A DNA stretch of 64,000 nt from Nitzschia sp. DOCU1 (Eukaryota; Bacillariophyta; Bacillariophyceae; Bacillariales; Bacillariaceae): contig OX595987.1 of the NCBI GenBank assembly GCA_951394045.1, positions 3,968,001-4,032,000 on the forward strand, in the 5' to 3' direction. Positions 12,020-35,990 of this stretch are shown in pieces. Positions within the stretch are counted from its first letter, which is position 1. Every line of letters begins with the position of its first letter. The position numbers and the translations under genes were made by a program. The notes beneath the pieces were generated by a model, which worked only from the letters and a program-made list of their open reading frames with translations, made no database searches and was not told the DNA's origin.

Positions 12020-12183
12020 GATTGAGGAATTTGCCACCTCTGTTTTTCGCTCCATCCAGGCCCATGCCCTAGTGACGTTATACTGAGTTCTGTGTGTACA
12101 CCGAGGAACTTCGATACCGCGCAAACGGTATCCCGAAAACGAGCTAACCGTTTCGGCGATGATCTGGGGAAGTCGTGGGGAAG

Positions 12184-12246
12184 TTGTCGACGAGGGGAAG
12201 TTGAGGGGAAGTTGAGGTGAAGTTGAGGGGAAGTTGAGGGGAAGTG
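12184..12246. repeat. Satellite tract, unit GAAGTTGAGGG
   Basis: About five head-to-tail copies of an 11-bp unit (GAAGTTGAGGG/GAAGTTGAGGT). The same unit recurs at 12425-12501 inside the same insertion, in the same orientation. Confidence 0.75.
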
Positions 12247-12424
12247 CGCAAGGTCGACCGAACATCACGCCGGCCGGTTCAACCGCCAAGCCAGCCCTGT
12301 CGAAGACGTTTTGAAAACGTTTTGGACACATTCAAACTTGGTCGGCCGACTCGGTCTGTTGGTGGATGTCGGACTGGCTGGCTTTGGCGCGCACGGTCAT
12401 CCCTTTGGCGCGCACGGTACGACG

Positions 12425-12501
12425 ACGAGGTGAAGTTGAGGTGAAGTTGAGGGGAAGTTGTCGACTAGGTGAAGTTGAGGTGAAGTTGAGGGGAAGTTGT
12501 T
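12425..12501. repeat. Satellite tract, unit GAAGTTGAGGG, second array
   Basis: Six to seven copies of the 11-bp unit, one interrupted by GTCGAC. The bases just before it (12381-12420) hold a duplicated segment CTTTGGCGCGCACGGT. Confidence 0.75.
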
Positions 12502-13017
12502 TTAGCGATAGTTATCAAGGCGTTTGGAATAACGCGGAATTCAAAGCACTCGCTTCTATGTGATCAATATATATGCCTCACATATGCCCTTTTAGGCCAT
12601 GGGCCAGAGGATCTCTCATTTTATCGATTACGCACTACCAGCTCCAGTACACTCCTGCTCGGGAGCTGCTCCCTACTGGGTAGAACCCCTGCTCCTAGCC
12701 CATCAGTTACATGCCTCATGGAGCCGCAGTGGGTTAATCCCCGAAGGTCGTCTATGTGTGTGCGATCACGAGACGTGGAAATCCGTATTTGGTGGGACGA
12801 CGTCGAATTGTGAATTGGGAGACATACATCCTTGTATAAAACGGAATCTTAAGAGCCTGCGGCCACTTTTTTTTGCGAAATTTTTGTCCAGTAATGAATT
12901 GTTTTGAATGATAACGATTTTCCGCATTATCTTGTTTAGGAGAGTCGGATTTTGTTGGGACACTCCACATACGTTTGTTTCCCTAAATGTCCTCGTTGTT
13001 TAAAGAGATTTGCGACT

Positions 13018-13036
13018 CGCGCGCTCCGGTCGCGCG
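13018..13036. other. GC-rich hairpin, candidate element-terminal hairpin
   Basis: CGCGCG at 13018-13023 pairs with CGCGCG at 13031-13036 around a 7-nt loop. Read on the Rep-helicase coding strand it lies downstream of the transposase gene, where rolling-circle elements carry a 3' hairpin. No CTRR follows within about 20 nt, so this is only a candidate. Confidence 0.3.
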
Positions 13037-13077
13037 GATGCTACGGTCGAAGTAGTCGACTATTGTCTGATTGCCAG

Positions 13078-13097
13078 TTATTGTATGACACCAATAA
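13078..13097. repeat. 20-bp palindrome, copy 1
   Basis: TTATTGT-ATGACA-CCAATAA. The arms pair at 6 of 7 positions. It lies in the 5' flank of the first small-protein gene. Confidence 0.7.
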
Positions 13098-13261
13098 CAT
13101 TTTGGAATTTGCGTCTGTTTCACTGTGAAACCTGATATTGCGAATTGGCTCCCAGGAAGAAAAAGAGTCGAAATATTCGCTTCTAACGGTCGACTAATAT
13201 TATTTCAGCTAAATCCCGCAAGGTGCTCTCTCCTTCTTTGTCTCGTCATGAGGGTGTCATA

Positions 13262-14425
13262 ATGTCGAAATTGTGCTCAAATCTTGGGATCCTGTTAACC
13301 ATGTTGTTACCCATGATGACCGTTTTTACCGAAGAGGAATGGGAATCTTCCATGCTCCAACAATGGGAGCACCAGTTGCTCTTCTTCGATGCCATGGCTA
13401 TGTTCGCGTCCACCTTCCCCGACCACAACGAGGTTAAAATGAAACACTGTGAGGCTCTTGACGAACTGATTGAAATGTGGTGGCACCCTGTTCTTGCTCG
13501 TCCACAAGTATTTAACCGGAAGATGTACCAACAATACACTTCCATGTTGTACTCTTACCTTACCGCCGTCGTCGTGGACCATGCGCATGTACGGATCACT
13601 CGTTCAAAGATGAGGAAGTACCACCGCCGGGCATCTGTGCTGAAACTCATTAAGTTTGATGCCGACGGATCCGTTCTCAAGAAAAACAGTTTCTATTGGA
13701 ACGTTGTTTGGTTCGACGAAATGTGGTCTGGTCGAGTTGTTGCGAATCCGACCCCCACCACTGGGAAATGGTTCGGGATCTTGTCGAGACGGGCAGGTGG
13801 CCCGTTCGGATACAGTGAAGCGGAGAGAGAGAACGGCCTCCCTGTCGCTTACGAGTCCGATACCAACGGTGGTCTGCCCGTTGCTTACAACTTTCCTGTC
13901 TGTCGCTCGGGCGTGTGGGTGTTGCCAAGGGTGATCATTCCAATTGGTTCGAATCGGGAAGAGCGTTGGAACTTTGCTTTGCCTCGTGCCAGGGACTTCC
14001 CCCTTCGGTTCCCAATCATAAACAACCCTGAACTACCAGGTCCACAACTTAGGGTCCCTGCATACAATCCATCCTTGATCCAACGAGCGAGTCTTCAATG
14101 AAACACCGATACACTTGCGCCCATTCGTGAGGTTGGCGTTGATTGGTACGATTACTCACAGCGTCTGGCGCCCATATTGAACATGCATCGGAGAGAAGAA
14201 CGGGCCCGCCGCTCATCCCATGCCGATGAAATTCCGGGTCCGCTCCGCGATGTATTCGACCCGGCCGTTTGTTTGCCTGTCCTGGCTTCCACAGACACAA
14301 ATATGGACTTCTTGGAAAACGAGATAGCCCGTGTGGTAGAAGCACTCAATCTTCATGCATGCAACGAATATTGCATGAAGTATAGCGAACGCCGTCAAGG
14401 CAACAGGACGCCTGTCGTCATTTAG
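13262..14425 (+). pseudogene. Element cargo protein 1, paralogue of 14742-15410, with in-frame TGA
   Basis: The frame from the ATG at 13262 runs to a TGA at 14099-14101 (279 aa). It then continues open in the same frame to 14425. The first 165 residues match the next gene: QQWEHQLLFFDAMAMF against QYWEHTFLFFDAMDLF, and KLIKFDADGSVLKKNSFYW against KLISFRDDGTAFVSETFYW, with the same spacing. The part after the stop reads VDWYDYSQRLAPIL and ends HACNEYCMKY, recalling HVCTDYCMRK in the element's Rep domain. The open frame past the stop suggests a recent nonsense mutation, an unrecognised intron around 13.93-14.16 kb, or a sequence error. No known domain is recognised. It could still be translated as the 279-aa form. 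Confidence 0.6.
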
Positions 14426-14741
14426 TTGGAAAAAGGGTCCGCCTGTTTTTGTAAGACACCAATAACATTTATGATTCGTGGCCATTCGTTGTGTCATTTT
14501 GTCGCCAGGATTATAAATACTTAGGAACCCCCCAACGACAATCTTTTTTGTCTTTTCTGCGAGTTCGTGTCTCATTTTGTTCTCAACGATTCTCCCTGTC
14601 GTTCGCCTCGTGTGTTTGTATTCTTAATCCAACGGTTGATTTTTATTTTGTGAACGACTCAACGCTTCCCTTGCCCATTTGCGACCGGCACCAACTGCAC
14701 ATTGACGATCGACATTGCGAATGAAATAATCACATATCATC
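14426..14741. promoter_or_regulatory. Spacer between the two paralogous cargo genes
   Basis: 316 bp carrying one 20-bp palindrome (14446-14465) and a TATAAATA at 14512-14519, about 220 bp before the next ATG. The TATA-like site is plausible but unproven as a promoter. Confidence 0.4.
14446..14465. repeat. 20-bp palindrome, copy 2
   Basis: TTTTTGT-AAGACA-CCAATAA. Same 7-6-7 layout as the other copies, with a weaker left arm. It starts about 20 bp after the end of the extended cargo-1 frame. Confidence 0.6.
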
Positions 14742-15410
14742 ATGTCTTCCACCGTATCCATCTCGAGCGTCGAAGACGATGACACTCGAAACGAAAACGA
14801 CGATGGACGGAACGAAAGAATCCTCGGTTTTGTGACCCATTTTCTGGAAAACCGTCTGCAATACTGGGAACATACGTTCTTGTTTTTTGATGCAATGGAC
14901 CTGTTTCCTCATTGCAAGTGGAACACTCAAAGGCTCAGGGAAAACAAAGAGAGCCACTTCCGACAGTTCCGAGATGAATTCGAGGATCTTCGGAAGACGA
15001 AATACCACGCATTCGACGCGTTCGTGTATCAACAGGTCGTCCGTTACCTCGCACTCGTGGCAGAATGGCTAAGCGATAACCACGAGAACCCCTTTGATGC
15101 GCTTGCCGTTGTACCCCAGCTGTACGAGAGAGCAAGACAATACAAACTCATATCCTTCCGCGATGATGGCACCGCATTCGTGAGCGAGACCTTCTACTGG
15201 TCCGAGGTTTGGGACCGTGATATCGAAGGATGGGAGCTTGCTATCCGCAATGCCGAATCGAAAGAGATGAAAGAGTGGTTGGGTCGTTTCCATATCAGGG
15301 CAATTGGGTACAAGAGAGACCATCTTCGTGAACTCAGAGGCGGCCCCGCCGTAGAATACGACATGACATGTGCGATGGACGGTCCACACGGAGTCGGCTT
15401 TGATGTCTGA
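14742..15410 (+). CDS. Element cargo protein 2, unknown family
   Basis: 222 aa from the first ATG. The N-terminal 30 residues are acidic (SSVEDDDTRNENDDGRNE). The rest looks like a compact helical protein rich in Trp, Tyr and Phe. It shares two well-conserved blocks with cargo protein 1 (WEH--LFFDAM and KLI-F--DG----FYW--VW), so the pair arose by duplication within the element. I recognise no enzyme motif, membrane segment or signal peptide. The C-terminus is followed at once by a tandem pair of 20-bp palindromes. A role tied to the element (replication, packaging or regulation) is only an inference from location. Confidence 0.75.
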   Translation: MSSTVSISSVEDDDTRNENDDGRNERILGFVTHFLENRLQYWEHTFLFFDAMDLFPHCKWNTQRLRENKESHFRQFRDEFEDLRKTKYHAFDAFVYQQVVRYLALVAEWLSDNHENPFDALAVVPQLYERARQYKLISFRDDGTAFVSETFYWSEVWDRDIEGWELAIRNAESKEMKEWLGRFHIRAIGYKRDHLRELRGGPAVEYDMTCAMDGPHGVGFDV

Positions 15411-15411
15411 T

Positions 15412-15509
15412 CCAATTGTGTGTTATTGGTATCTTCCAAAAAGTTTCATTACGCTGATATCCAATTGTATGTTATTGGCGTCTTCCATTAAGTTGCAAAT
15501 TCGCAAATA
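15412..15509. repeat. 49-bp tandem duplication containing palindrome copies 3 and 4
   Basis: Two units starting CCAATTGTRTGTTATTGG at 15412 and 15461. Each contains one 20-bp palindrome: TTATTGG-TATCTT-CCAAAAA at 15423-15442 and TTATTGG-CGTCTT-CCATTAA at 15472-15491. They fill the short gap between the converging cargo-2 and Rep-helicase genes. Confidence 0.75.
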
Positions 15510-15536
15510 CTGAATAAATCTGGACCGAACAGTTGT

Positions 15537-18500
15537 CTAATAGTTCGTTGATTCATCTGTTCGTGTCAGTAACTTTGTATTTGCCACGTTGTATTTCGAG
15601 ATGATTGCATCCAGCGACGAAGGAGTGTGCTTCGTTGTCCTCATCCATTCGATGATCTCGGTCTCTTCTTTCTCGCTGAAAATGACCCGCCTGTTGTGGC
15701 TGTCGAGTAACTCCGTCCATTGTTTTCTTTTGATTATCCGTTTAAAAACTTCACCCTTCTTTGTCCGTGTCATGTCGGCGACTCGTTCTTTTGACATAGA
15801 TTGTCCTTGAAAGTAGATCGACGATGATAGCGGGTCTTCAGCTGTCCCGATCGTAGTACCTCTAGAACAGGCCGAATAGAAGAGGCCCGGGTTTTTTCCT
15901 TCGAAGGACAACGAACCAGGATAGATTACGATCGACGGTGTTTTGTAGGTCGTATGGTTGTCGTCTGTACCGACTGTAAGTCCTTGGAAGGTGTGTATGG
16001 TCTGGCCATATGCAAGTCGAAGTGGCAACTGTGTTCTCGCGCAGCATCCTTTCTGGCAATGAACAGTGACTGGAACCAGAGGCACATACGTCGGCTGTGA
16101 ATCAATGAACGCCTTTCCCGTATACGAAGGAAAATCGACAAGCACATACACCGGGAGACTTTTGCTGTTGGGGGATTCGCCTTCTTTGAATACCAAATCT
16201 ATCACCGTCCCCGACGCATTGTTGTATAAGCCCCATTCTGGCCGAAGATTACGGCCTTGGAGACATACACGTGAATTCCTTGCGATTGTCAATGATTTAA
16301 CAAGTCCGCACTCCGACAAGTGCCTTTTGTTCCGTGCTTCATCCGAGGCAGCTATACATGCCACTGGGTTCAGTGCCGACGTAGCGAGAAACAGTTGTCG
16401 ATTATTGTGTTTGTCCATTGGTTCTTTATTCGCGAAGACATGAATTGACCGATCACGGATTGTTGTACGATCTTCGTCTGTAAAACGCGGGTTATCAAGA
16501 TGAAGCTCCATAAGCCTTTCGGCACCGGTATCTGTCACAATCCCCGTGTAGGCTTCGTCCAGGATCTGTCTATATGTGTCTTGGTTGGTGTTCTGACGGT
16601 AATTAACGTTCAGAGTACGCACGTCAGTTGCCATTTCGAGGAAGGTTTGCATACCTAAATAATGCCCACCGTTCCAATTCTCTCGTGAACTTGTTTTAAA
16701 ATCGAAAGACCCAATTCCAATCGGGGGTAACTGACCGTCATCCCCAAAGAACAACACCACGGGTATCCCACCCCACCCACCTCTTGCATTTTGGTTCTTG
16801 CCGTTGTGTGCAGTATACACAAGATACGACACGACAAACCCCAAAACATCTGCCGGTGTCATGCTCCTTTCGTCCATGATTAAAACGACAATCCGCCCGT
16901 TTTCCTTGATCATCCGGTTCCAAGCTCTTTGTGGAGGTTCCAGCTTGTTGTTTACGCTGTGAACGCTCACATGGAAACGGCCATGTAGTGTTTTCCCTCC
17001 GGCGTTGAATGCCGCGCACCCTGAGGGACACACAACAACCCCACTTTCGTTGGTGCTGAACAAACTTACGACCATCGTTACTATCGTATGGATCAAGGTT
17101 GTTTTCCCACTTCCCGCCTGCCCTCGGATCGTTAGGTGCAACGGACAGAAATCTGTAAGGTCTGACTGCAAATCAACCTCGGTCCATTCCTTGATTTTCT
17201 GCATCACTTCTAGTGCAATGTCTCGTTGTTGCCCCTTAAGTTCTTCGAACTCGTAAGGTTTGTTCCCGTTACGGGGATTGGTCGGCAAGCGAATGCCGTT
17301 CGTTGTCACATTCTCTGCTTCCTCGATCCTCTGCATTAACCACGTCGCGCCGACCTGAATGTCAATTTCGAACCCAGAGTTAGGTATACTCCAATCGTAT
17401 TCGAACCCAAACTCGAATGGATATTCATGGACCAACGATACGGCGTGGTTTGACGGGAGTACCGAGAATGCATCGATTGCTTCTCGCATCGCTTCGTCGA
17501 CAGGTTCTCTTACGTCCTGGGTCTCGTTATCGGGCTTGTCGGTTGGTTCTTGTTGCCTTATCGTGGCACGATATCGATCACGTTTGAATGTATATTTCAA
17601 GGACTCAGGACAATCAGCAGACTGTAAGAACGACCGCAACATGTGGGGGTGTCCACTGTCGCCGTGATGCCTGGTAATGTCCCATGGTTTGTAAATTAGA
17701 AGCAACATTTTAGCCATGTGATCTGTGATGGGATAAACAGAAGAAACCCCTCTTCCCGGGAAATGCGGAATGATCGTACGATTCCCTTTTTTAGATCTCA
17801 CGGCAAGAAACCAAGTCATCAAAGACATGCCAAGATGCTGGTAGTGATGTTTTTGGTGTGGTCCATTAACAAGTTAGATTCGTTGTGTTGCACGTCAGGA
17901 ACCGCCCGTTAACAATTGTACGTACATTTTTCCTGTAGGCGTAGTCACGAAGCGTTCGATTCATTCCTGTTGTCCCCCTACTGTCGATCTTTGTGTAGCC
18001 CGACAGGCTAATTCTGTGGAATGATTCGCTGCATACCCACAAGTCAAGCCCGAGAAGCTGAACCATACACTCCTGCTTCGAAACGACTCTTTCGCCGACG
18101 TATCTGTTCAATATTCTTCTTGCCAACGCAACCACGTCACGTTCACAACCTGTCTTTTCGTCAGTTGCAAGGATTAACATCCGTAGTTGCTGACGCTCGT
18201 GTTGTAATGTTTCCACCCCTTTTGAAGCATATGACACAATATAATTGGTCACTTTGGTGATATCTTCGGAGTCAGGGTTTTTCGGGTCGCTTTCGAACAG
18301 TAGAATCTTGACGTCGCAGTTAGCTCTCCATCCGTGAATCAAAGCCATCGAGGTCGGGTTCGTGTTGATTCGTTCCTTTGCAATACGTCGAGGCAATTCG
18401 AACCGCTTGTACCCTGTGTGCGCCGCAGTGCTTATACAGGCGTGATGGTTCTTGGGAAAACCGGGGGTGTCGCAAGCGCCTGCGGTCTTCTCGACACCGC

Positions 18501-20785
18501 ATCCATTCCTGCATACTCTGCGCTGTCGGCTTTTCTTGGTTTCGTCCTTTCGGCTTTGCGACGTGTTAGAGGGTTGTTACTATCGACATTCAGCAGTCAT
18601 CTACTAGCGAGGCCGTCACTTACAACACTGTTCTCTTGCGCATGCAATAGTCCGTGCAGACATGGTTTTGCACCGTCAACATGAGGTCAACTGCATCTTG
18701 TTTCATGTCCTTCACCTCAGATAGCACCCTGGATGCCGGGTGATGTTTGCCTTGTAAGGACACTGGCCTCTCGAAGTCATTGGGTAAAGATGCCGTCATA
18801 CACAGGTCGTTTTCCGTCCATTCCTGATATACCTTGGCGCGCGCAAGCTCCATGTCGTCCTGAATGTCATTTTCTAGTACCGTCTTCATTGCGTCATAAG
18901 CCCTTTGTTGGACACCCAGGTTGTCCGTTATCAAGAGACAGTGAGCATGGATCTGACCTCTTCCCGGCGCGAATTCGAATTGAAGCCAGTAATGCTTCAC
19001 ATTAAATACGTCTTTCCCCACCGTATCGAACCAGTGTTTTACCCTCATCTGAAAGTATTCCTGTATGACAATCGTATATTCGTGCACAGAGACATCCTCA
19101 TCTTCGTCGTCTTTTGCGATTCCCGTAGCTAACCCGTCATGGGCCTTCTCGTAGCCTTTTCGTTCCCGGAGTAGACGCTTAACGTCCGGCCAGTAATGCT
19201 CCGCGCAACTCAGTGTAACGAATACGGTAGGGGCGCCATTACCATTTAACACGTGGTACAAAATCCAAGACTGGATTTCTTCTCGTCTTTGACGCCAAAA
19301 CGGGGCACTACCCCGAACGATATTGCCAAAATACGATATCTTTTCGATCCATGAAGTGTCGCCATCGTCAATCAACTTATGCAGGTCTTCGATGGTTTTT
19401 GGACTACCACTTCCGGCAAACGTCCTCACAAAGAAAGAGCCTTGTTCCATGTTCTTCTTGCGTTGCACATAGTTGAGAGCATAAAAGCACCAGATTTTGT
19501 CACGTGCGAATCTCCCGTCTTCGTACATAAGCAAATATTTAGCCCATTCTTCGACGGTCATGTCTTCCGTTTCAGGGATATCTCCCCAATCACCGACACC
19601 GCCGGGGAATAGCCAGGGAAACGCACAACAGAAAATCCTGTAGTCGTCGTCATATTCGGAGATGGCTTCAGTTCCAACCTCGGGGAACTCCATTGCGTTT
19701 GGCACAGGAGAATTGCGTTCATTGTTATCAATGTTAAGTCGCGACGTGGCATCCAATGCACGTTGTTCCATGTCTCTCACCATGGCAACGGTTGCTTGAT
19801 CCCTGGCTTTCGGTAAAAGATTGTCGCTGTCGAAGCGGACGACACCATACGCGGGATATTCGTTGTCGTCCGGTTCTGGTCGTACACGTAAATTGACGGT
19901 AGCCTCCTGCTCTCTTTTCCTGTCACAGGGACTTTGCTTCTGGACAACCACGACGTCAAGCTCGGCTTCTGTTTCGCCATTCATCCAGCTAAGATTTGCT
20001 TCCTGGATAATGATGTCTTTGTAATGTCGGTGGTACCTCTTCAGCCATCGCAGTGCATCCAGGACGACCGTCTTTCTTATAGCAAAGGTCCGTTCGTCGA
20101 TCTCTTTGTCAGGGCCGACAAACCGCCTTATGACCTTAACGGCTTCGACCTTTTTCCGCGGAAGCTCCGTCACAAAGTCTTGTAATTGTTTCGGGAAACA
20201 ACACACATGGCCTTTGCTCGCATGGGAACCCCCTTTCATGAACCGCAATGGAACGTATGTGGAGACACGCTGAATGAGCAACTTTTCGCCCTCGCGGAGA
20301 ACCTTTAGGCATTGCGGGACCGTATAATGTGTCTTCTTGTCTTCGTCTTGCCATGTAGGAAGCCAAGGTGGAATGTATGTGGCATTTCGAGCCTTCTTAT
20401 CTGAGCATCGTTTGCACACACCCCTTTTGTTGATAAGTTTCAACTTAGTAGACACAATACGGCAACAAGGGCAACGGACATGGACAACCGAGGCGTTCAA
20501 TTGCTCGAACCGAAGATTTGCATCGTGTGCACGGGGGTGGTTCATGTAAAGGTCGACGCCATCTCGACAGATGACGGGTGTGTTCCTGTCGTCGTGGTGT
20601 TTTCTCGGGGTACTGTGCGCGTTCAAAGATTAAGTGTTAATGGCATTCTCCAATAAATGACACAAACCGCACCGTGTTAATGGGCTGAGCCATTAAAACG
20701 TCGGTCTTTTCACTTACACGATGGATGTTTGTGTTCCCTTCTCGGTGTTCTTTTTCGCCGTTTTTATCTTCTTTGCCTTCGTCAT
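15537..20785 (-). CDS. Helitron-type Rep-helicase (transposase), four exons
   Basis: Predicted 1661-aa rolling-circle transposase. Exons on the minus strand are 20785-20718, 20612-18624, 18553-17926 and 17837-15537. All introns are GT-AG and frame-preserving. Exon 1 is short and lysine-rich (MTKAKKIKTAKK). Next come a Cys cluster (CPCC ... CKRC, about residues 70-93) and the Helitron Rep N-terminal region with GHVCCFPKQL. The HUH metal-binding motif is GRGQIHAHCLLI (about 575). The C-x3-YC segment joins across intron 2 to CRNGCG. The two catalytic tyrosines are in NYIVSYASKG (790 and 794). The C-terminal SF1 Pif1-like helicase has GQAGSGKT (1134-1141), IMDERS, GDDGQLPPIG, NYRQN, IHTFQGLTVG and YSACSRG. 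All key residues are present, so the protein may be active. It would nick, unwind and replicate the element as ssDNA. No ATG precedes the Cys cluster in exon 2, which supports the extra exon. Confidence 0.9.
17838..17925 (-). other. Rep-helicase intron 3 with a 20-bp palindrome
   Basis: 88 nt. Donor GTACGT, branch-like CTAAC, acceptor CTACCAG, phase 0. Without splicing the upstream frame stops inside it. It carries the palindrome copy at 17850-17869. Confidence 0.75.
17850..17869. repeat. 20-bp palindrome, copy 5 (intronic)
   Basis: TTTTTGG-TGTGGT-CCATTAA on the plus strand, wholly inside Rep-helicase intron 3. Confidence 0.7.
18554..18623 (-). other. Rep-helicase intron 2
   Basis: 70 nt. 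Donor GTAAGT, branch CTCTAAC 13 nt before the CAAAG acceptor. The TAA that ends the upstream frame is part of the donor. Splicing joins HVCTDYCMRKRTV to the conserved CRNGCG/TPGFPKN segment. Confidence 0.85.
20637..20656. repeat. 20-bp palindrome, copy 6 (intronic)
   Basis: TTAATGG-CATTCT-CCAATAA, arms matching at 6 of 7 positions, in Rep-helicase intron 1. Confidence 0.75.
20677..20696. repeat. 20-bp palindrome, copy 7 (intronic)
   Basis: TTAATGG-GCTGAG-CCATTAA, perfect 7-bp arms, in Rep-helicase intron 1. Confidence 0.8.
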
Positions 20786-20923
20786 TATGGCGTTTCGCGC
20801 TTTTCGTTTACCTATATGACGATGAAATGAACGATCATTAGTTAACAGTTACATGTACCGTGTATCCCGTGTAATACATAACAAAGTTACGACCATACGA
20901 CACACAAGGAATTCCATCTGGAC

Positions 20924-22243
20924 TCATTCGCGACCGTAGACAAACATTTTCAGACCTTCGGGGATCGTCTTGGCTTTCACACATGCTTCGGTCAGATCGG
21001 TTCCGGCGAACGTGTTCAGTGCGTCCGCGATCCCCTCTGAGGTGAGGAAATCGTCAAGTGACTCGTGTGTGATGATCGAGCAGTTTTCACCTAGAGACCC
21101 TTGTAGTTGAGACCAATACTTCCCGATCTGGTCTCCATTGTCGGGACCCGGGACCTGGAGCATCTTCTCGGCGTTCGCGTTCGAGCTCGTTGACATGTAT
21201 TCCTCAAAGTACATACCCTGTATTTCTTCGTCTTTGAAGATCGGGCCAAAAGATTCTCGTACGTAAGATACGAGTTCATCCGTCCGGGTATTCATAGGGT
21301 AACAAAACAGGAATACATCACTCGTCAAGGAGAGTTGCCCGTTTTTGCCCTTTGTCACCATAGTGTGGCCTTTGTCCTCGCCTGCGGGGTCTCGGAGTTG
21401 TACCGAGGCGAGATATGACAAGAACAGGTTGATCTTCTCCATTCCTTTTTCGCCAGACTCTTTGAAAATATTCAAAACAGCAATCCATTTTGGAGCGCGA
21501 TGCAGCCAATGGGTGAAATTTTGGACTGGGTTTACAAAGTCGAGCACCCCGATCTTAACGGGGAACAGCGCAGGGACGTCCTTTGTGATATGAATCATGG
21601 CTTCCATTCCAGATGTCTTTCTGTTTTCTCTCATTTTCTTGGCGAATGACCCAGTTTCGAATGTCCCCTCTCTGCCGCCGTTCCCCGGAGCTCGCTTTGC
21701 TGATGCTGCGTAAGGGTTATGAGGGGCTGCGGCGCGCTTGAGTACCGGCAGGTCGTTCCCTTTGGAAACGGTTTCTGCGTTACTGGGCTTCGTAGGAGTG
21801 ACCAGGGGAGGACTTCCGTTCGCTCTCGCAACCGTATGGTCTTCCAGGAGTGTGCTTTCTTTCTCTTCTACGTTGGAACTTTCCATTGCCTTCATGAGTG
21901 ACTCGGCGCTGTTAAGTTTGAGCACCTCAACCTTGTTTGTGCCGTCTTGTCCCATTGCTCCGACAAGAAGTGATGGTAGTGTAGATATATCACTTACAAC
22001 TGTAATCTTCCCATTCACTCTGATGCAAGTGAAGGGTGGGGAGCTATGATGGGTTGTAGTTGCCTGTACCTCCACAGGCTCTTCTGTTAGGAAAGACGTC
22101 CCGTCTTCGCATGCCACAAAGGTGTCTACTTTATCTTCGTTAGCCATGGACTGCTTACCTTCTTTTTGACTTGCAGATCGACTATTCTTCAAGCCACCCT
22201 TACCCTCGGACGGGTGACGAGTGCTCTTGTTGCGAGTGTTCAT
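20924..22243 (-). CDS. Element cargo protein 3, 439 aa, unknown family
   Basis: One open frame from ATG at 22243. The first 40 residues are basic and Ser/Lys-rich and could direct nuclear import. Residues 40-200 are low in complexity, with acidic patches and a basic stretch (NPYAASAKRAPGNGGREG). From about residue 210 it looks globular: MIHITKDVPALFPVKIGVLD, a Trp-containing helix (NFTHWLHRAPKWIAVLNIF) and SDVFLFCYPMNTRTDELVSY. I do not recognise the fold. It lies 138 bp upstream of the Rep-helicase start on the same strand, so the two may be co-regulated. Rolling-circle elements of the Helitron group sometimes carry a replication-protein-A-like ssDNA-binding gene, and this could be a divergent one, but no motif proves it. 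Confidence 0.75.
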   Translation of the reverse strand: MNTRNKSTRHPSEGKGGLKNSRSASQKEGKQSMANEDKVDTFVACEDGTSFLTEEPVEVQATTTHHSSPPFTCIRVNGKITVVSDISTLPSLLVGAMGQDGTNKVEVLKLNSAESLMKAMESSNVEEKESTLLEDHTVARANGSPPLVTPTKPSNAETVSKGNDLPVLKRAAAPHNPYAASAKRAPGNGGREGTFETGSFAKKMRENRKTSGMEAMIHITKDVPALFPVKIGVLDFVNPVQNFTHWLHRAPKWIAVLNIFKESGEKGMEKINLFLSYLASVQLRDPAGEDKGHTMVTKGKNGQLSLTSDVFLFCYPMNTRTDELVSYVRESFGPIFKDEEIQGMYFEEYMSTSSNANAEKMLQVPGPDNGDQIGKYWSQLQGSLGENCSIITHESLDDFLTSEGIADALNTFAGTDLTEACVKAKTIPEGLKMFVYGRE

Positions 22244-22522
22244 GATGTGAAACTATTTTTATGAGACAATCAACACAAGTCGGATTGTCCCTCCGAAATT
22301 AGACACAAAAAGCTTACTGAAATTTTCAATTTTCACCGCCGATATAATCTCCAACAGGCCACAAACGAAGTCGGAACAGCGACATCTTTGTCGTCGTTCA
22401 AGAATATCAGCCATATTGGTTTGCAAGGAACATTGTTCCAACAGCGACAGAAACTCATGGGAATAGGGGAGAATACATGTGGCTTCAAATGTTGTTATCG
22501 GACCGAAATATTTCCCCCGACG

Positions 22523-22542
22523 ATAATGGAGCCGGCCATTAA
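22523..22542. repeat. 20-bp palindrome, copy 8
   Basis: ATAATGG-AGCCGG-CCATTAA, arms matching at 6 of 7 positions, in the divergent intergenic space. Confidence 0.7.
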
Positions 22543-22736
22543 CAACAGGAAACCCGTTCCTGATATGTGTTTTCTGTCCGTTCGGATATGGAATAAAGGT
22601 TGGTGTATGTGTGATCTGTAGGTGTTCTAAAATATCGTCCGGAAGAAAATAGTGCTTTGCCTGTTGTCTAAATAAAATTCCTTATCTTGCGAAATTTCCT
22701 AGACAATCCATCTAAGTACATAAATTTCGCTTCGAC

Positions 22737-22756
22737 AAAATGGCTGGGTCCAAAAA
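22737..22756. repeat. 20-bp palindrome, degenerate copy
   Basis: AAAATGG-CTGGGT-CCAAAAA keeps the TGG-N6-CCA core and spacing, but the outer arms no longer pair. It could be chance. Confidence 0.35.
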
Positions 22757-23026
22757 CTACTAGTCGTTTTAATTTTTCGTTGAGTCGTGAAATATTTGAC
22801 CATGTGCCCCAATGAGGCCGGCGTGCTCCATCAGCGGCAATTTCTAATTAAAAAAATCGACGTGGCCTCCCCTGCTCGACCTACTCGCCCATTTTACGTG
22901 GTCTCGAGCAGATTTCCCATCACCTTCCGTTTTGCATCGACAGCGGAAGATAGTGTCGTTTTCTGGCATCCTCATTGTTTTCGATCTACGACAAACATCG
23001 CCAACTTGTCCTAAACCGTGGCGACC

Positions 23027-26000
23027 ATGGCGGAAGACAAGATAACCTTCGACTTCTTAGCTCACCTCTTCTCCGATGAGTTCGAAGCCACGCTTCTCGA
23101 CACAGACGTTACCGCGTTCTCGTCCCTTCCTGCGTCGCCAGCCCCTGGACTTGTGGCGGAATCGAGTCCGAAGAACAACGGAAAGGACCAGAGAAAGGAT
23201 AGAGAACAATTACGTAATACTGTTGAAGATATGCATCGGACCGCACATACCGCCATCAAATCGTATTTGAAACAACGTAAACTACAAGTCGAATATGGCA
23301 AAACTAATACTGTTGAAATGTATCTTGGAGGTAAGACATACACAATTACACTCTTCCTTCTTGACAACACTTAATCCTAACCCTGATCTCCACTAGATGA
23401 CTTCCATAAGCTTTTGCACAACAACATGCAACTGTATCTTAAGCATGCAAAAAAGATGCGCGAGATATTTGATTGGACGGGGGCTCAAGCGGACTACCGC
23501 CAATACGCTAAGGACCTCAAAATAAAAGAGGTTCTTAATTTCCGAGAACAACATCACGTTGTACTCTCGCCATTTTGTTTTTGGTTATTGCAGGACCAGG
23601 ACCCCCTGGGCTGTGGGGAGATCATAGCCCCACCCTTCAACCATCGGCGTCCGGACCAAACAGTTTTCGAAGAGGACGGAGTTGAGAATTTGTTGACGGG
23701 TTCGTCCGAGGCGAACCACCAGTACCTGCAAAACGGTGTCGTCGTCAGTATGCCGTATTGCCTTGCCCCGGCTTCGAAAGTACTCAAGGAAGCAGTGCTA
23801 TCTTTGCGCTCCACCGTCACATTTTCCTGGAATAGTGCTGGGGATCCGAAGTTTCACTTTGGTATCAATGTACCCAATGTCACGGTTAAAAAGCCAGACC
23901 TTGATGTTTACTGGGGTCTTGCAGGATTCTTCGGGTATCATTATCATCCAATCGACCAAAGCATCAAAGCCTATGACGATGTCGTTGATCTCCCGCTTCT
24001 GATGAACCGTTTTGGAGCAGAAGACATGACAACCGTCAGTCACTTAAACGCCGTTTTGGGGAAGATGGGGTTCCACTACCGCTACAAGGAAAAGACGAGT
24101 GAAGGTGACACTACCACGGTTCAAGCCTTTCGACATTTCGCGGCGTTCTTTCGTATGATCACGCCATTTCGTTTGGCACAGTTAGAAGGTACCCACAGAA
24201 CCTACCTGTTGAATCGCGCGATGCTAGGGTTTGGAAGCAGAGACCCCGTTCCTCTGCGAGTAGAAGATGGAAGGGCCATCGACTTTCCGTCAGCGGGGAC
24301 ATTGGTCGATGACATGACCTTGAGACTTGTATACACTTACGACGACAAAACGAGGCAGGGAAGATACACACTCACGAAAATAGATCGTGCGATTGTCCAG
24401 AATGACATCGAAAAGTGTAACACCTACAGTTACGACACGCAAACGTTTCGTACACTCACTTATCACGACGACTTCAGGCAGCTACTGCGAAACACCATGG
24501 AAAAAATCGCGGACGACCCCCTTTATGGCTATTCAGGGTTGAACAATGATCGCGATTATTGGCTGCTAGGTCAAGAGTGTTTCTTTGGGCACAAGGACAA
24601 TACAGTGTTTGGAATGTACCTGTCAAAAATGTTGGGAATCTTGATCACCGGGCTGTACACATGGGTTGGGGTGTCGGGTAAAGTCAAGGACGAGAATAAG
24701 ATCAACAAGATGAAGAATGAAGCCGAAGAACAATTTGTTCCGGACCTGGCTAGGTGTAATCGCCTCTTTGCCAAGAAGGTGTTGACGGCCCCCATGGCTG
24801 TGAAAATCGAGAATATCGGATCCAAGGCCTACTACACCATGGGCATGGAAACGACCAAGAAACAACACAACCAGTCTTTTCGGGAACTCTGGGTTGCAGT
24901 TTGGTTGGTCAAGACGAGTCTCGTTTCGACGAAGTGTTTCTCGATGCTCCACGACTTTCTCGGGAAACCGAAAGTCCAGCATTTACTGAGTGTTCAATGG
25001 TTGAATGACAGTGTCATAACGCCGATCGACAACATCGTCAGGCATTACTTCGAGATCAGAGACAAAGGCATTCAGACTGCGAAACCACGCCACAAACTCG
25101 TCAATTACTTCAAAGCTCGTTTCCTGATGATCTTCATTGCTGAGTTGTCTAAGATTGACTACGATAAATATGCCTTTTTGCATAAAGGCGAAGAAGAAGC
25201 CACGGCTGCAGACCTTAAGAAGAGGATCATGGTACAAGAACGAAAAGAGAACTATGATCTGAAGGTAAGGAGCTATTAATGGGAGATGCCATTAAGATTG
25301 CTGCTTTCTTACAATGTCGTTGTCCGTCCTTTCTTATCGACCACCCCGGTAGTTTTTGGTTGCACAACTTGACGGTATCAAGCGTCCAGAAGACGGTCCT
25401 TACCCCGCCCGGTATATATCCGCGTTGTGTGTCCTCTATGCCCTTTATCTTCGAAAGTTTGATGAGGATTGTGCGTATGGGCGGGAAACGTACGAGCTCC
25501 TTGATTCAGGCAAGACTGGGAGAGTTGCAGAGGAGGAAGCAGACGGTGCCGGGAGTGACAACGACGATGACGACAGTCCGAAATATCTCGGTGACGAACT
25601 CCTCCGTTTGTTGGAGCCAAAAACGGGAAAGCCGTGGTTGTCAAACAAAAAAGGAATGGACGGATTCATGAGTCTCGTCGATCAGCTCTTGGCATTCAAT
25701 GACAGGAGATTGTCCCTTTCCGCTTTCATTGAGAATAAGCTTTCGACAGACCCCGACGAGAAGGTGATCGTCGTTTTCGAAGAGAAACTCACCAGGGCAC
25801 AAAACAGTAAGGGCGAATCGTCTGCGACCGATTTGGCATCGACGGGAGGCATCAACACAGGTGTCTTCGTAAGCCTCCTTTCTGCCGTGAATCAATTGTT
25901 GCAAAGTGAGGACAGCGGTGCGACGAAGATACTTGGACCGCAGTTGCAACATTTCGTTCCTGTTTTCAACCACGCCCTTACCGCCTTGTCTGAAAAGAAT

Positions 26001-26540
26001 GCAAAGGCTACCGAGGTTGTCATCAAGGAAGGGAGGCTGTACCACCCCCTCCTCGACGACAATGCAAAGTCCACCGCCAGTTCTGCTGCTACGAACGAGC
26101 CGCCAGCAAAGAAAAGAAAGGTAGCAAATCAGGCCGGGAACAAAGCCTCTCCGAAACAAGTCACCGACGCGACGTCTTCCAACAAAACCAAGGAGAAGGG
26201 ATCGGTAACGGAGGACAGTTCTGCTGCTACGAACGAGCCGCCAGCAAAGAAAAGAAAGGTAGCGAATCAGGCCGGGAACAAAGCCTCTCCGAAACAAGTC
26301 GCCGACGCGACGTCTTCCAACAAAACCAAGGAGAAGGGATCGGTAACGGAGGACAATGACAAGGCTCCGGCGAGGCACAAGAAAGGAGCAGGGAAACATA
26401 CGACAAACGCAGCCTCCACCACCAAAAACAAGAAGAAGCCAGTGCAACAGACGCCTCAAGACGGCGGTGGGTCTCCCCAACGTAAGTCACCACGCAACAG
26501 TGGCAAATCAACCAGGAAGGAACCGGCGGCATCAGACTAA
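23027..26540 (+). CDS. Element cargo protein 4, spliced 1119 aa, unknown family
   Basis: Three exons: 23027-23330, 23397-25264 and 25353-26540. Introns have GTAAGA...CACTAG and GTAAGG...GGTAG ends and keep frame. The chosen ATG sits in a good context (GACCATGG); an in-frame GTG lies 9 nt earlier. Residues 1-725 look globular with many Tyr/Phe/Trp and a conserved-looking FRLAQLEGTHRTYLLNRA segment that resembles an EG-HR motif. After about residue 760 comes an acidic run (EEEADGAGSDNDDDD). The C-terminus carries two 46-residue repeats, each with PPAKKRKV, nearly identical to the SV40-type nuclear localisation signal, and then a Lys/Pro-rich tail. It is therefore probably nuclear. No nuclease, polymerase or capsid motif is recognised. 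If intron 2 were not spliced, a shorter 729-aa form ending VRSY would result. Confidence 0.75.
23331..23396 (+). other. Intron 1 of cargo protein 4
   Basis: 66 nt. Donor GTAAGA, branch-like CCTAACC, acceptor CCACTAG, phase 1. No palindrome copy is inside. Confidence 0.8.
25265..25352 (+). other. Intron 2 of cargo protein 4 with a 20-bp palindrome
   Basis: 88 nt. Donor GTAAGG, acceptor CCGGTAG, phase 0. The retained form stops at a TAA (25277-25279) that overlaps the palindrome at 25276-25295. The joined frame lacks an ATG near the start of the next exon, which favours splicing over two separate genes. Confidence 0.65.
25276..25295. repeat. 20-bp palindrome, copy 9 (intronic)
   Basis: TTAATGG-GAGATG-CCATTAA, perfect 7-bp arms, 11 nt into intron 2 of cargo protein 4. 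Confidence 0.8.
26080..26356 (+). repeat. 138-bp coding tandem repeat with NLS motif, two copies
   Basis: Two near-identical units beginning AGTTCTGCTGCTACGAACGA (about 26080 and 26218). Each encodes a 46-residue unit with PPAKKRKV. Very few base differences separate them (ACC for GCC, GCA for GCG), so the duplication is recent or kept uniform. Confidence 0.85.
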
Positions 26541-26556
26541 CAACGCTGGGCGTTGT
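26540..26556. terminator. Hairpin directly after the cargo-4 stop codon
   Basis: ACAACGC-TGG-GCGTTGT: perfect 7-bp arms with a 3-nt loop, starting on the last base of the TAA. It may help 3' end formation or be incidental. Confidence 0.35.
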
Positions 26557-26930
26557 GGCACTCTTTATATGTTGTTTCTTTAAATCTAGCAAATATAAAC
26601 ATTATGTAAATGGAGTCTTCCATTAACGTTGTCGACGTGCATTATGGCAGAGCCACAACGTATGCAGCACAACCGTCTTTTCCACGTCCAACAACCGTCA
26701 TTACACGACTACCTCGACTCCTCCACATGGCAGAGCCACAACGAATGCAGGACCCCACGCCTTATCCACGCTACGTTTTCTTTCGCCCAGGCTAAGCACC
26801 CACTGCGGCGTCGAGGGTGCCCAACCCCAATCATACCAACGGTACGTCCCCGCCTACTCCCCCACCCGAAACGTCAGGCTCCCACGCGCATGTGTAACCA
26901 CACCCAATCAAGTTTGCGCCCCTTGTACCA
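26557..26930. other. Right noncoding end of the element
   Basis: Noncoding, with the last palindrome copy (26607-26626) and a direct repeat of the phrase TGGCAGAGCCACAACG at 26645-26660 and 26730-26745, about 85 bp apart. C-rich stretches follow up to the bracketing repeat. Open frames across it have no family features. Confidence 0.45.
26607..26626. repeat. 20-bp palindrome, copy 10
   Basis: TAAATGG-AGTCTT-CCATTAA, 67 bp after the stop codon of cargo protein 4. Arms match at 5 of 7 positions. Confidence 0.7.
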
Positions 26931-27057
26931 GATTGAGGAATTTGCTACCTCGGGTTCGCTCCATCCAGAGGATAGCTCATCATATCGATTACGCACTACC
27001 AGCTACACTCCTGCTCGGGAGCTGCTAGAACCCCTGCTCCTGGCCCATCAGTTACAT
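26931..27057. repeat. Right copy of the bracketing direct repeat
   Basis: 127 bp matching 12020-12058 plus 12606-12712. It contains the last 20 or so codons, stop and immediate 3' flank of the multicopper oxidase gene on the minus strand. This copy is uninterrupted. Confidence 0.8.
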
Positions 27058-32111: not shown

Positions 32112-35100
32112 ATGGAGACAACGATAAGAAAGTCGCAAGATGCTAATCCCCCAACTACGTGGGATGAATCAGCCCTCTGGTCCAGAATTCCACTTACTCG
32201 GGTTGGGAACATCGAAAACGCCAAGATGCCGCCCCCGTCACTTGCTACCGATGGCAAAAATGACAATATGGGATCTTTTACCAACAGTTCGGAATGCAAG
32301 GTGACAGCTCCGTTTGTCTGTTTCGATGCGACCTCTGAATGGCAACGAGCAGCACAGACGAAAACGCCTCTTTACTCGTCGCCGAAGAAGGGCGCACACA
32401 TGCGGAGGAGCGTCGTTTTTGGAGGAGCCCGTGATGAGTTGTCCATCTGCTCCAACGCATTACTCGATTTGGAGTCGGTGACAGATGTTTCACGTTTCCG
32501 CCTTGCCTCGCCGCGTGATTGGGACGAAGACTTGGAAGTGACAAATTCGATTCTCGACGACGAAAACATTGACGCCTTTCGCAAAGACCAGGCCGTCTAC
32601 TACGAAGATGAAAACGATATGGCTCCTGAGAATCGATTTCTCTGCCCCACGGAGTATTTGGCTCCTTCCAAGTACGAATTCAATCCTTGTGTAAGCGAAA
32701 ATCCTCGACAGCCAGGAAGCCCTACAGTTGGAGAGGGTAGTTGGTGGCGACAACACATGCCCACTCCGAAGTGTCGGAGTCTCATTTCAAGTTTGCCCTT
32801 GACAGCAAGGAAAAATATAACAAAAGGCCTTTCCGCCCTCATCAATCTAAATGAGCAAACGATATCAACTTCCAACTTCACCGGTGCCATTGGCAGCGGC
32901 ATTCCAACTGTTTCCGGTGATCCAGTGGATGAGCCTGTAGAAGTATCTCTGCATACCTTCGAAACTGAGGTCGAGTCCTCAGAGTTTGACGCTTCGAGAG
33001 ACTTGATTCATGGAAGAGGAAGGAATCTGTTCTTTGTGATGCAGGTGGAGACCTTCATTCGGGACAAATCATTATATCTGCCCGGCCGTGACAAAACAAA
33101 GGATCAGAACAACGAATCGCTGCAGGAAATCATGTTGAATTATCATTCCTTGCAGGCACGGAGGTCCCGTCTACAACGCGCGGTACGACATCGGAAGATT
33201 CGAGAGAAAATGATATTAGGACATGCCGAAGTCGATGAGAACAAATGTACAGGCGTCGAATCGGCTTCTACTGCTGCCACCACTAAAGATCAGAGCACGT
33301 CGATCGACTTCTGCTCAACAAGACGCTTTCGCTTGTCTCAAGCAATGCGCCACCGTAAAGCTACCAACACAAAGCCAGCTTCGTGCTCGTCAAGCTTTGC
33401 TACCACGGCATCGCTCGAGGAGTCGACATCGACCTTCAACTGCATCGCAGTCGTCAGGCTAGTTTTGTACCTCATTCGCCAACAATCTTTCTCGCAATCA
33501 TCGAACCACTGGCTGGGATATGATCATGGCCCCCTTAGGGTATATGCTTCCCCCGAGGATACTCTGCGCCTTTTGGCTTTGTACTTGTTCACTTGGGCCA
33601 CGAAACAGAATGATTTAACATCATTACTTTGGAAGGAATTATCCTTCGACGTCGAAAATAAAGATGGCGCTTCGGTTGGTGAGGGGACAGTAGTGTCTGT
33701 CAACCCGTCAATTCAAGCTCTTGTTGAAATTGCAGCGATTGAAACCCATCTTTCAAGAGATTCCTATATTTATGCCCACTCAAGCAACAATATGGAATCT
33801 GGTGACAATACCGACGATGACGATATGATAATGGAGCTAGCGAAGCTTGAAAAGGCGGAGGAAGATCTAGCACGACAGTTGGCCTCTGCAACCATGGAGC
33901 ACGCTACCATGAATGTTTCGACCTTGCAGTACGACCAGTCCACTGAAGAAGCGACACTCGAGAGTGCTCCAGGAAGCATAGCATGCCATCTTGCGAACGA
34001 AACTAATGATGAATCAGTCGAAATGATGGGAATGAAAGCCAGCTCTAGTGGCGCAACTAGCCATTCTACCTTTGTCCTGGAGATGCAGAAGAACTTCGAC
34101 GAGGCCCGTATGATTAGAGACTTTTCGATTAAAATCGAAGCAATGGCCGGTGATGGTTCAAACGGTGAAGAAAATCAAGATACCGAAATAGTTTTTGATT
34201 ACAGCGAAGGCTGCAAGGAGAAAATTCCCACTCCAAAGAGTGACTTGCAGTGCGCCAGCTCAATGGCAAAGCAATGCAGTACTGGCGTTGGGTTTGATAC
34301 ATGTGAAACAGCGACTCCTGTACCACAGGATAACGAAGGCGCTTGCTCCAATCGTTTGCGGCATACTCTACGGCGGGACGCATTTACCCCTGGCGAAAAT
34401 GAAAAGCAGGAAAAGGCTCCTGTGGTCGTCACCCCGCCACGAAAGAAAAAGGCTGGTCACATTGACCTCTCCCCAAATTGGTCCTTTGCCCCTCTTGTGC
34501 AGGGATTCAGCGATATTTCCGATATCTCCGCACCCACAGCAAGTAATTGGTCTTTGGAACCCAACCTCAACACACCCATCCGAGCCTCTACGAACCAGCA
34601 ATTGAAGGGTTTTCTTCGACTGAAATCGGAGACAACCTGTGATCCGAATGAAGATTCTCATCATGCCTTTCAGGAAATGGATACGAACAAACCACTCGAC
34701 ACGTCTAGTGACAACTCAGTTGTTGTCCATTCAGACACCCTAGGTCTCCTTTGGAAGGAAGTGAGCCTTACTTCTAGTAAAGGTGATAATCCAGCACAGA
34801 CTTCTGGCCCGAGCATAATTTCAAATGATCTCAGCAGGCTGACAAGTGACGAAGAAAATGACGGCCCGGGCAGCGATGGCACAAAGTCGCAATCCAGGAT
34901 CAAGAGACATACACTTGAATCAATCCTGGCAGCGGAAGATAGCGACGACTCGGTCGAGAAGCACCTGAACAATGGCGATGCTGTCAAACACGTGGGCATG
35001 GATTTCAGCTCTTGTCCAAGTCGTGACAGTATGGATAAATATGACTGCGGAATCGAGGATGAGAGGAGTGTGGAGAGCAAAAGTTTCCATCTTCGGCCGA

Positions 35101-35990
35101 CACTATCTAGCTTTACCGAGGACTCTGGAATTCAGTTTGCAGGCCGCCCGAAGGAGCACGAAATGGACATGGTAGAGCATGACCGGTGTTTTCCCAACGA
35201 CAAGCCACTTTTTGATGCCAAGTTTGATGAAATGCTCTGGGACGAGCAACAATATCCTGAAACACCATGTGTGGATCGCTATGCTGAAGGTGGGTCTGAC
35301 TCTGAGAGGCTGGAGGATGATATCGTGATGCAACTCCTTAAAGTTCACGAAGCAAAGATGGACAAGATGACCAACCAACTCGATCCCCCCGGAATCAAGG
35401 CTCTCTTTGCCTACAACGAAGAAAATGATACTGCCATTGTTTCCTCAACCAACAGCCAGGATGTCGAACTTGTAACTTCTTGGAATCCATCATCGATTTC
35501 ATCTTCCGAAGACCCTGCATGGACCGACAAGACTCCCCTCCTTGGTTATCACCATAATGGGCCTTCGCTTTTTTCGGATGCTTCCGAAGACTCCATCACG
35601 GAGGGGAAAGGCAGGGGCACCGAAAAGGCCGAAACTACAGCCGCATGGGAGAGCAGTGGTGACGAAGAAATGTTGGGTTCCGATACACAAAATGTCAAAT
35701 TGGACAAACTTTCTTCCCTTACTTCAACGGACCATTCTCTTCGCCGGGAGCACAACATGTCCTTGCACCCAGTAGTAAAGGTTGAGACTTCTTCTCCCCC
35801 CGTCCCAAGCCAATCAACACGTCAAAGTACTTTGCCGCCATCCAAGGTTGCAGCAACTACGCCAAAGAACGCCTCTCCTCAAAAACCATTAGAAGCGGAC
35901 AATCTTTGGGCGCCTCTTCAGTCGTTTGGAAAGGCGATGTGGTTTTTGCGGTTCCCTTCTGCCGAAGTCATCGAAGCCAAAAGAAGCTAG
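32112..35990 (+). CDS. Very large disordered acidic protein, 1292 aa
   Basis: Single long frame from ATG in a CACCATGG context. The sequence is rich in Ser, Asp, Glu and Thr with many charged low-complexity stretches. Two short related basic helices, SRLQRAVRHRKIREKM and FRLSQAMRHRKATNTK (about residues 355-440), form an internal repeat. The C-terminus (NLWAPLQSFGKAMWFLRF) is the most hydrophobic segment. The phrase LLWKE-S recurs at about residues 510 and 880. No catalytic domain, signal peptide or membrane helix is visible. It is probably a scaffold or regulatory protein. Function unknown. Confidence 0.75.
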   Translation: METTIRKSQDANPPTTWDESALWSRIPLTRVGNIENAKMPPPSLATDGKNDNMGSFTNSSECKVTAPFVCFDATSEWQRAAQTKTPLYSSPKKGAHMRRSVVFGGARDELSICSNALLDLESVTDVSRFRLASPRDWDEDLEVTNSILDDENIDAFRKDQAVYYEDENDMAPENRFLCPTEYLAPSKYEFNPCVSENPRQPGSPTVGEGSWWRQHMPTPKCRSLISSLPLTARKNITKGLSALINLNEQTISTSNFTGAIGSGIPTVSGDPVDEPVEVSLHTFETEVESSEFDASRDLIHGRGRNLFFVMQVETFIRDKSLYLPGRDKTKDQNNESLQEIMLNYHSLQARRSRLQRAVRHRKIREKMILGHAEVDENKCTGVESASTAATTKDQSTSIDFCSTRRFRLSQAMRHRKATNTKPASCSSSFATTASLEESTSTFNCIAVVRLVLYLIRQQSFSQSSNHWLGYDHGPLRVYASPEDTLRLLALYLFTWATKQNDLTSLLWKELSFDVENKDGASVGEGTVVSVNPSIQALVEIAAIETHLSRDSYIYAHSSNNMESGDNTDDDDMIMELAKLEKAEEDLARQLASATMEHATMNVSTLQYDQSTEEATLESAPGSIACHLANETNDESVEMMGMKASSSGATSHSTFVLEMQKNFDEARMIRDFSIKIEAMAGDGSNGEENQDTEIVFDYSEGCKEKIPTPKSDLQCASSMAKQCSTGVGFDTCETATPVPQDNEGACSNRLRHTLRRDAFTPGENEKQEKAPVVVTPPRKKKAGHIDLSPNWSFAPLVQGFSDISDISAPTASNWSLEPNLNTPIRASTNQQLKGFLRLKSETTCDPNEDSHHAFQEMDTNKPLDTSSDNSVVVHSDTLGLLWKEVSLTSSKGDNPAQTSGPSIISNDLSRLTSDEENDGPGSDGTKSQSRIKRHTLESILAAEDSDDSVEKHLNNGDAVKHVGMDFSSCPSRDSMDKYDCGIEDERSVESKSFHLRPTLSSFTEDSGIQFAGRPKEHEMDMVEHDRCFPNDKPLFDAKFDEMLWDEQQYPETPCVDRYAEGGSDSERLEDDIVMQLLKVHEAKMDKMTNQLDPPGIKALFAYNEENDTAIVSSTNSQDVELVTSWNPSSISSSEDPAWTDKTPLLGYHHNGPSLFSDASEDSITEGKGRGTEKAETTAAWESSGDEEMLGSDTQNVKLDKLSSLTSTDHSLRREHNMSLHPVVKVETSSPPVPSQSTRQSTLPPSKVAATTPKNASPQKPLEADNLWAPLQSFGKAMWFLRFPSAEVIEAKRS

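Follow-up and report, generated by a model that had tools for sequence, protein, structure and literature searches.

A recently copied 14-kb Helitron in the diatom Nitzschia sp. DOCU1 with an ordered accessory gene set and family-specific palindromes

The usual description of Helitrons has them encoding a Rep-helicase (RepHel) and, beyond that, no more than RPA, OTU or endonuclease genes, with any other cargo seen as accidental capture. Several described systems come close to the element that we report here. According to PMC5148889, the Helitron2-like elements FoHeli1/2 of Fusarium prefer a target of TNAT before A or T, and their RepHel may be inverted; FoHeli3 is described there as carrying one extra gene with an unassigned domain, divergent from RepHel and found only in Helitrons. 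In the report on fungal Helitrons with a TET/JBP dioxygenase, the accessory gene is proposed to aid escape from silencing (PMC12730594), and the VANC proteins of Arabidopsis VANDAL transposons are reported to bind family-specific noncoding motifs and remove silent marks (PMC10398659, PMC5735166). We analysed a 64,000-nt stretch of the Nitzschia sp. DOCU1 genome (contig OX595987.1, positions 3,968,001 to 4,032,000; hereafter the window) in which a 14-kb block is a real, defined and recently copied rolling-circle mobile element. Coordinates are positions in the window, and genome-wide counts refer to the 52-Mb, 63-contig genome, with contigs labelled C1, C2 and so on; family A is the window element, and families B, C and D are other RepHel families in the same genome.

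The whole element spans 12720..26926 (14,207 bp), limits that are set by a full second copy on C2 and by the same ends in a deleted copy on C4. The C2 copy (C2:1711768-1725980) aligns to the window without gaps along 14,213 bases, of which 20 differ: one of the differences falls just beyond the preferred end, and the remaining 19 comprise six noncoding, six synonymous and seven amino-acid or stop changes. As judged by flank comparison, the C2 and window copies lie in unrelated surroundings and a duplication is absent. The C4 copy (2062016-2070201) carries an internal deletion and has ends identical to those of the window element, and a C24 copy retains one element end together with most of the gene for a 1119-aa protein. 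The near-identity of the copies indicates recent copying, and we are all but certain that the block represents a defined Helitron family. The first-pass annotation had placed the element at 12713..26930; the block itself stands, and comparison of the copies places its ends at 12720 and 26926.

The left end (12720..12747, plus strand) reads GGAGCCGCAGTGGG... and is preceded by TCAT, a TNAT, at 12716-12719, and the right end (26870..26926, plus strand) reads ...GGCTCC...GCGCCCCTTGT and is followed by A/T. The reverse complement of the left end, CCACTGCGGCTCCAT, occurs 34 times in the genome (0 for the reversed control), and the pattern TN-ATGGAGCCGCAGTGG, two bases longer, recovers the identical 34 places; TNAT therefore precedes 34/34 copies of this end, 28 of them read directly and all 34 covered by the pattern search. 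At the other end (GCGCC[AC]CTTGT) the next base is A or T in all eight ends read (window, C2, C4, C24, C6, C15, C1:4077007 and C1:598835). The Helitron2 target, TNAT before A or T, is accordingly seen at 34/34 and 8/8 ends, and a target-site duplication is absent from the flanks of the three family-A copies compared. Families A, B and C each have a short inverted repeat, GGAGCC/GGCTCC, at a distance from the other end of 44, 53 and 48 nt, respectively; hairpin folding, tried at one element end, returned weak folds. The Helitron1 signatures, 5'-TC and 3'-CTRR, are absent, the ends being GGAGCC... and ...CTTGT, and the opposite orientation (ACAAG...GGCTCC) fails too. The element is thus a Helitron that is neither a canonical Helitron1 nor a Helentron, and appears Helitron2-like by its target and partly by its ends. 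Given the match to TNAT before A or T and the inverted RepHel of FoHeli1/2, we infer by analogy that the left end is the 5' end, the right end the 3' end, and the RepHel gene inverted.

Pfam matches, introns and reading frame, and motifs define the RepHel gene at 15537..20626 on the minus strand (exons 20626-18624, 18553-17926 and 17837-15537). Its open reading frames (ORFs) match Helitron_like_N (3e-21), DUF6570 (7.5e-20) and PIF1 (1.3e-11), and GT-AG introns join them into a single frame, 1643 codons long if a TTG is taken as its start; an ATG is first met 28 codons inside this frame, so an upstream exon is possible. An HUH-type motif QIHAHC (18955-18938), a Y2 motif (Y-x3-Y) NYIVSYASKG (18246-18217) and a Walker A motif (17123-17100) are all in place, and the complete Rep-helicase with HUH, two-Tyr and Pif1 motifs noticed in the first-pass annotation is confirmed: the gene has the HUH/Y2 Rep and the Pif1-type helicase that define the Helitron superfamily. 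A Cyclin_N match in exon 2 (0.0014, below the cut-off) was taken as chance, and a single-sequence search of PDB sequences with the Rep exon gave no match at E≤1.

To the right of RepHel lie two genes that we refer to as the core accessory genes. The first, c439 (20924..22243, minus strand), encodes the 439-aa protein predicted earlier, to which no family is assigned; the second, big (23027..26540, plus strand; exons 23027-23330, 23397-25264 and 25353-26540), yields 1119 codons when its exons are joined, or 1109 with an alternative in-frame acceptor. The nuclear localisation signal (NLS) attributed to big corresponds to a basic, NLS-like AKKRKV run that is present twice, each within the 138-bp tandem duplication in the last exon (26078..26353, plus strand). 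Both core genes recur in two further families, found by tblastn of the window genes against fetched loci. Family B is represented by C6:1783055-1797771 and by partly deleted or interrupted copies on C15 and at C1:4.07M, with segments 98-99.8% identical, and family C by C1:598835-614529 plus a C3 copy with an end at 2808896. The RepHels of families B and C share 51-63% amino-acid identity with that of A, depending on the exon, and their c439 relatives 43-46%, and yet the order and relative orientation of the three genes (RepHel minus, c439 minus, big plus) are identical in A, B and C.

This arrangement bears on whether the cargo was captured accidentally, as in the Helitrons of maize and fungi, for which the capture of gene fragments is known (PMC6431247). 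Since the 439-aa and 1119-aa genes recur in the same order beside divergent RepHels in two further families, random capture does not explain them. Relatives of big were found at 10 loci, nine of which were examined (all but C12:1548752), with RepHel sequence alongside seven; those on C8 and C24 belong to copies that have undergone deletion and retain one end of the element. Relatives of c439 occupy seven loci, five with RepHel, the other two being fragments (C9:432584, broken by a stop, and C11:2274002, ~360 bp). Among the loci examined, neither c439 nor big is present as a complete gene on its own, and the presence of RepHel at 7/10 big loci contradicts the possibility that the cargo consists of ordinary host genes never associated with this RepHel. 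Furthermore, big is under purifying selection: the ratio of nonsynonymous to synonymous substitution rates (dN/dS) is 0.15 for its exon 2 (window versus C24, 619 codons), close to the 0.16 of the RepHel C-terminus (window versus C4, 234 codons), and big therefore seems to be kept by selection about as strongly as RepHel, with the caveat that the two values were measured on different copy pairs; the small protein sm2 gives 0.34 (window versus C4, 220 codons). Three families whose RepHels are half identical hold the same genes, arranged and oriented alike; we consider accidental capture hardly credible, and it is very probable that the accessory gene set is conserved and functional.

The left part of the element encodes two small proteins, sm1 (13223..14101, plus strand, 292 aa) and sm2 (14742..15410, plus strand, 222 aa), which match each other at E 2.3e-8 and are paralogous, as had been proposed. 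The closure of the sm1 frame after 292 codons is, however, a state of the window copy: in the C2 copy the frame is open over 412 codons. The small proteins have no match in families B or C, where the element end lies ~0.5 kb from RepHel. Among the 26 places in the genome with a Helitron_like_N match, a small-protein relative is nearby at eight (window, C2 and six family-D loci) and at none of the others. In family D, as read at two of the six loci, the small protein is encoded ~3 kb upstream of RepHel on the same strand; L038 (C10:1620000-1629999) and L039 (C7:3092000-3101999) carry the small-protein relative and a 226-aa protein of unassigned family. We detected no kinship of c439 with either the small proteins or this 226-aa protein.

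The cargo is unlike the accessory genes usually associated with Helitrons, as the first-pass annotation had it: no AP endonuclease, OTU or RPA family is matched at E≤1 in the window ORFs. Profile searches against Pfam, NCBIfam and PHROGs assign no family to c439 or big, with nothing above chance for the cargo in the latter two (the last exon of big gave single scores of 0.032 and 0.091). Searches of protein databases returned three relatives of c439 and two of big, counted among the ~8,000 best candidates scored, and three of the small proteins; all of these lack a Pfam domain.

Families B and C carry two more genes, for a cyclin and a 364-477-aa protein, between c439 and big. The cyclins match Cyclin_N at 9.5e-32 (B) and 1.5e-40 (C), and the nearest solved relative of the family-C protein is cyclin B1. 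The two cyclin genes, L033:8841-9797 (C6:1790840-1791796) and L024:4750-5346 (C1:604749-605345), occupy the same place in the same orientation. The 364-477-aa proteins (L034:393-1823, minus; L024:3156-4247, plus) are 35% identical and have no Pfam match; the C-terminal part may resemble a TFIIS central domain. The size of the element, its several unfamiliar genes and the cyclin in two families might suggest an element that is evolving towards a virus-like replicon, possessing a particle or an episome, or that descends from one. We found no sign of this: no capsid, packaging, polymerase or integrase family reaches the curated Pfam cut-off, although a very divergent viral protein could escape such a search, and the same holds for the hallmarks of virus-like and Polinton-like elements (capsid, packaging ATPase, PolB and integrase). 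Neither NCBIfam nor PHROGs gave anything beyond chance, and the 20 and 7 candidate stretches searched in viral contigs encode no relative. The earlier suggestion of a new large rolling-circle family with unfamiliar cargo is thus supported, given the full copy, the common ends and a cargo that keeps its order next to divergent RepHels, while its extension to a virus-like lifestyle is not, and we consider the latter very improbable.

A repeated cis-element common to the whole block had also been noticed. In family A this is the palindrome TTAWTGG-N6-CCAWTAA, which at ≤2 mismatches has 10 sites in the element, four of them exact, versus none in the 49.8 kb that make up the rest of the window. The exact sites are at 15472..15491, 20637, 20677 and 25276; a one-mismatch site lies in RepHel intron 2 (17850..17869), and the other sites with one or two mismatches are at 13078, 14446, 15423, 22523 and 26607. 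None of the 10 is exonic. Allowing three mismatches adds two sites in the element, one of them exonic, and four outside it within the window. Families B and C have palindromes of their own, and the arms of each are absent from the stretches of the other families. The family-B palindrome, CGACCTTTTGC-N7-GCAAAAGGTCG, has 33 sites at ≤2 mismatches (reversed control, 0), of which 24 are in the three B copies and nine in three other places; that of family C, TTTCGTTA-N3-TAACGAAA, has 11 sites at ≤3 mismatches, two of them exact, and its 9-base arm occurs 14 times versus a shuffled maximum of four. RepHel intron 2 and the spacer between RepHel and c439 hold sites in all three families, and, with gene limits hand-drawn for B and C and ~0.7 kb of C outside the reading, 33/34 tabulated sites lie outside exons and one in an ORF. 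This combination of matching slots and unrelated site sequences would mean that the specificity of the protein that binds them changed together with the sites.

What do the palindromes do? We think that they are probably sites for a protein encoded by the element, and their distribution suggests an element that recognises and manages its own copies. The location of sites near gene ends and in introns could also be accounted for if a transcription factor of the host used them as ordinary promoter or insulator elements and the accessory proteins did something else. In that case, other genomic sites and one common site across the families would be expected; instead, the exact A palindrome occurs nine times in 52 Mb, 9/9 in A copies (four in the window, three on C2 and one each on C4 and C24), and most B sites fall within B copies, making a host factor quite unlikely. 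Some of the inexact A sites form arrays: among the one-mismatch sites listed, groups of seven (C1:4951134-4952081) and 15 (C3:1934605-1936792) are spaced by ~150 bp and lie 1.5-3.7 kb from two other A-type ends (C1:4949283 and C3:1938328), and these arrays are likely non-autonomous elements built of tandem repeats. Such arrays, the many palindromes per element and the cyclin in two families would also fit iteron-like sites for replication, pausing or partition, bound by RepHel or an accessory protein and driving rolling-circle copying or maintaining a circle. Against this, the sites are scattered through most spacers and also several introns, with no concentration towards one end, and we regard this explanation as unlikely, though less so than a host factor.

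Our preferred reading, to which we assign a probability of roughly 45%, is that of an autonomous, Helitron2-like element in which a core accessory protein binds the palindromes as a mark of self, with a predicted role in expression or anti-silencing. RepHel would nick at the ends, peel off one strand and insert the copy between TNAT and A or T, its own gene being inverted relative to the strand moved. Either big or c439 would bind the palindromes in most spacers and several introns, probably as a dimer, and the bound sites would mark the whole element as self; this marking would most likely keep the element expressed or unsilenced, and perhaps aid replication. Protein and sites would change together between families, and the cyclin of families B and C may favour copying in a replicating cell. 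That expression or anti-silencing is the purpose of the palindrome-binding protein is a tentative proposal, made by analogy, and we are similarly cautious about a rolling-circle lineage with its own self-recognition, consisting of a dimeric protein and palindromes that co-switch specificity, with a cyclin timing the copying in two families.

Several observations weigh against this reading. Palindrome binding and the anti-silencing role are predictions from sequence and from the likeness to VANC, and the Helitron2-like placement is drawn from the target and, in part, the ends. Shuffled sequence yields inverted repeats as long as the 6-bp asymmetric one of the element. At one mismatch, 69 sites in the genome fit the A palindrome versus 20 for the reversed control, and inexact A sites are therefore less specific, although many of the listed ones belong to arrays close to A-type ends; the C sites were counted with ≤3 mismatches, the full palindrome without a shuffled control. 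Finally, c439 and big match no family or solved structure and have no usable predicted fold: used as profile queries against PDB sequences, big, c439 and the 477-aa protein had no match at E≤1, and AlphaFold returned a mean pLDDT of 45.4 for c439 (five sequences) and 38.0 for exon 2 of big (seven sequences).

Rearranged element sequence and the surroundings of the window copy yielded further observations. L032 (C9:166647-167366) is a 0.7-kb mosaic of seven pieces from across the element in both orientations (58-211 nt, 84-93% identity), and in L021-L022 (C3:2797380-2808799) the RepHel part of a family-C element is tandemly duplicated, with 99.9% identity over 5,711 bp. Diverged direct repeats at 12604-12712 and 26965-27057 (83-88%), which match a multicopper oxidase gene in the flank at its 3' end, were considered as a target duplication and rejected; they are old duplicated flank sequence, and neither the C2 nor the C4 copy has them alongside. 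Immediately left of the element (12144-12510), an 11-bp tandem repeat of the type GAGGGGAAGTT occurs in clusters, and open frames of 1292 and 1103 aa, at 32112-35990 and 38293-41604, have no Pfam match at E 0.001.

Families with approximately half-identical RepHels here keep a multi-gene accessory set in order, and each has palindromes of its own in corresponding positions. This opens to testing the question of how rolling-circle transposons manage their chromatin or replication, and whether the recognition of family-specific motifs arose more than once. If the preferred reading is true, the element would be a rolling-circle counterpart of VANC anti-silencing, built from unrelated proteins. 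With full copies that are nearly identical, it may also lend itself to experiments. Among the matches listed in the open-licence literature, we recognised no description of this element or of a cyclin-bearing Helitron.

The comparison with known systems is as follows. The resemblance to VANDAL and VANC is one of design: both have short, noncoding, family-specific motifs that differ between related families. VANDALs are, however, MuDR-type transposons, whereas here we have a RepHel element without a MuDR-type Pfam match, and anti-silencing binding is reported there and predicted by analogy here. The TET/JBP Helitrons likewise carry a possibly anti-silencing accessory gene, which encodes a recognisable enzyme, in contrast to the proteins without known domain described here (PMC12730594). 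Helentrons and their HINE/DINE relatives share with our element a rolling-circle RepHel and non-autonomous copies with tandem repeats, and Helentrons also have a subterminal inverted repeat, asymmetric and placed 38-60 bp from the 3' end; they differ by a TT target, as opposed to TNAT before A or T (PMC4067079), and by the AP endonuclease fusion, OTU and RPA matches that the window ORFs lack at E≤1. The capture Helitrons of maize and fungi are similar in size and in having extra genes (PMC6431247), but their fragments vary from copy to copy, whereas the gene set here is kept in order across families. FoHeli1-5 also dispense with the 5'-TC/3'-CTRR pair and have non-autonomous relatives, and FoHeli3 has an extra Helitron-specific gene, yet these elements measure 5-11 kb as compared to 14-16 kb here (PMC5148889). 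What is new in the Nitzschia element is the accessory gene set, its conserved order and the palindrome system: the families conserve four to five accessory genes, and each has palindromes specific to it.

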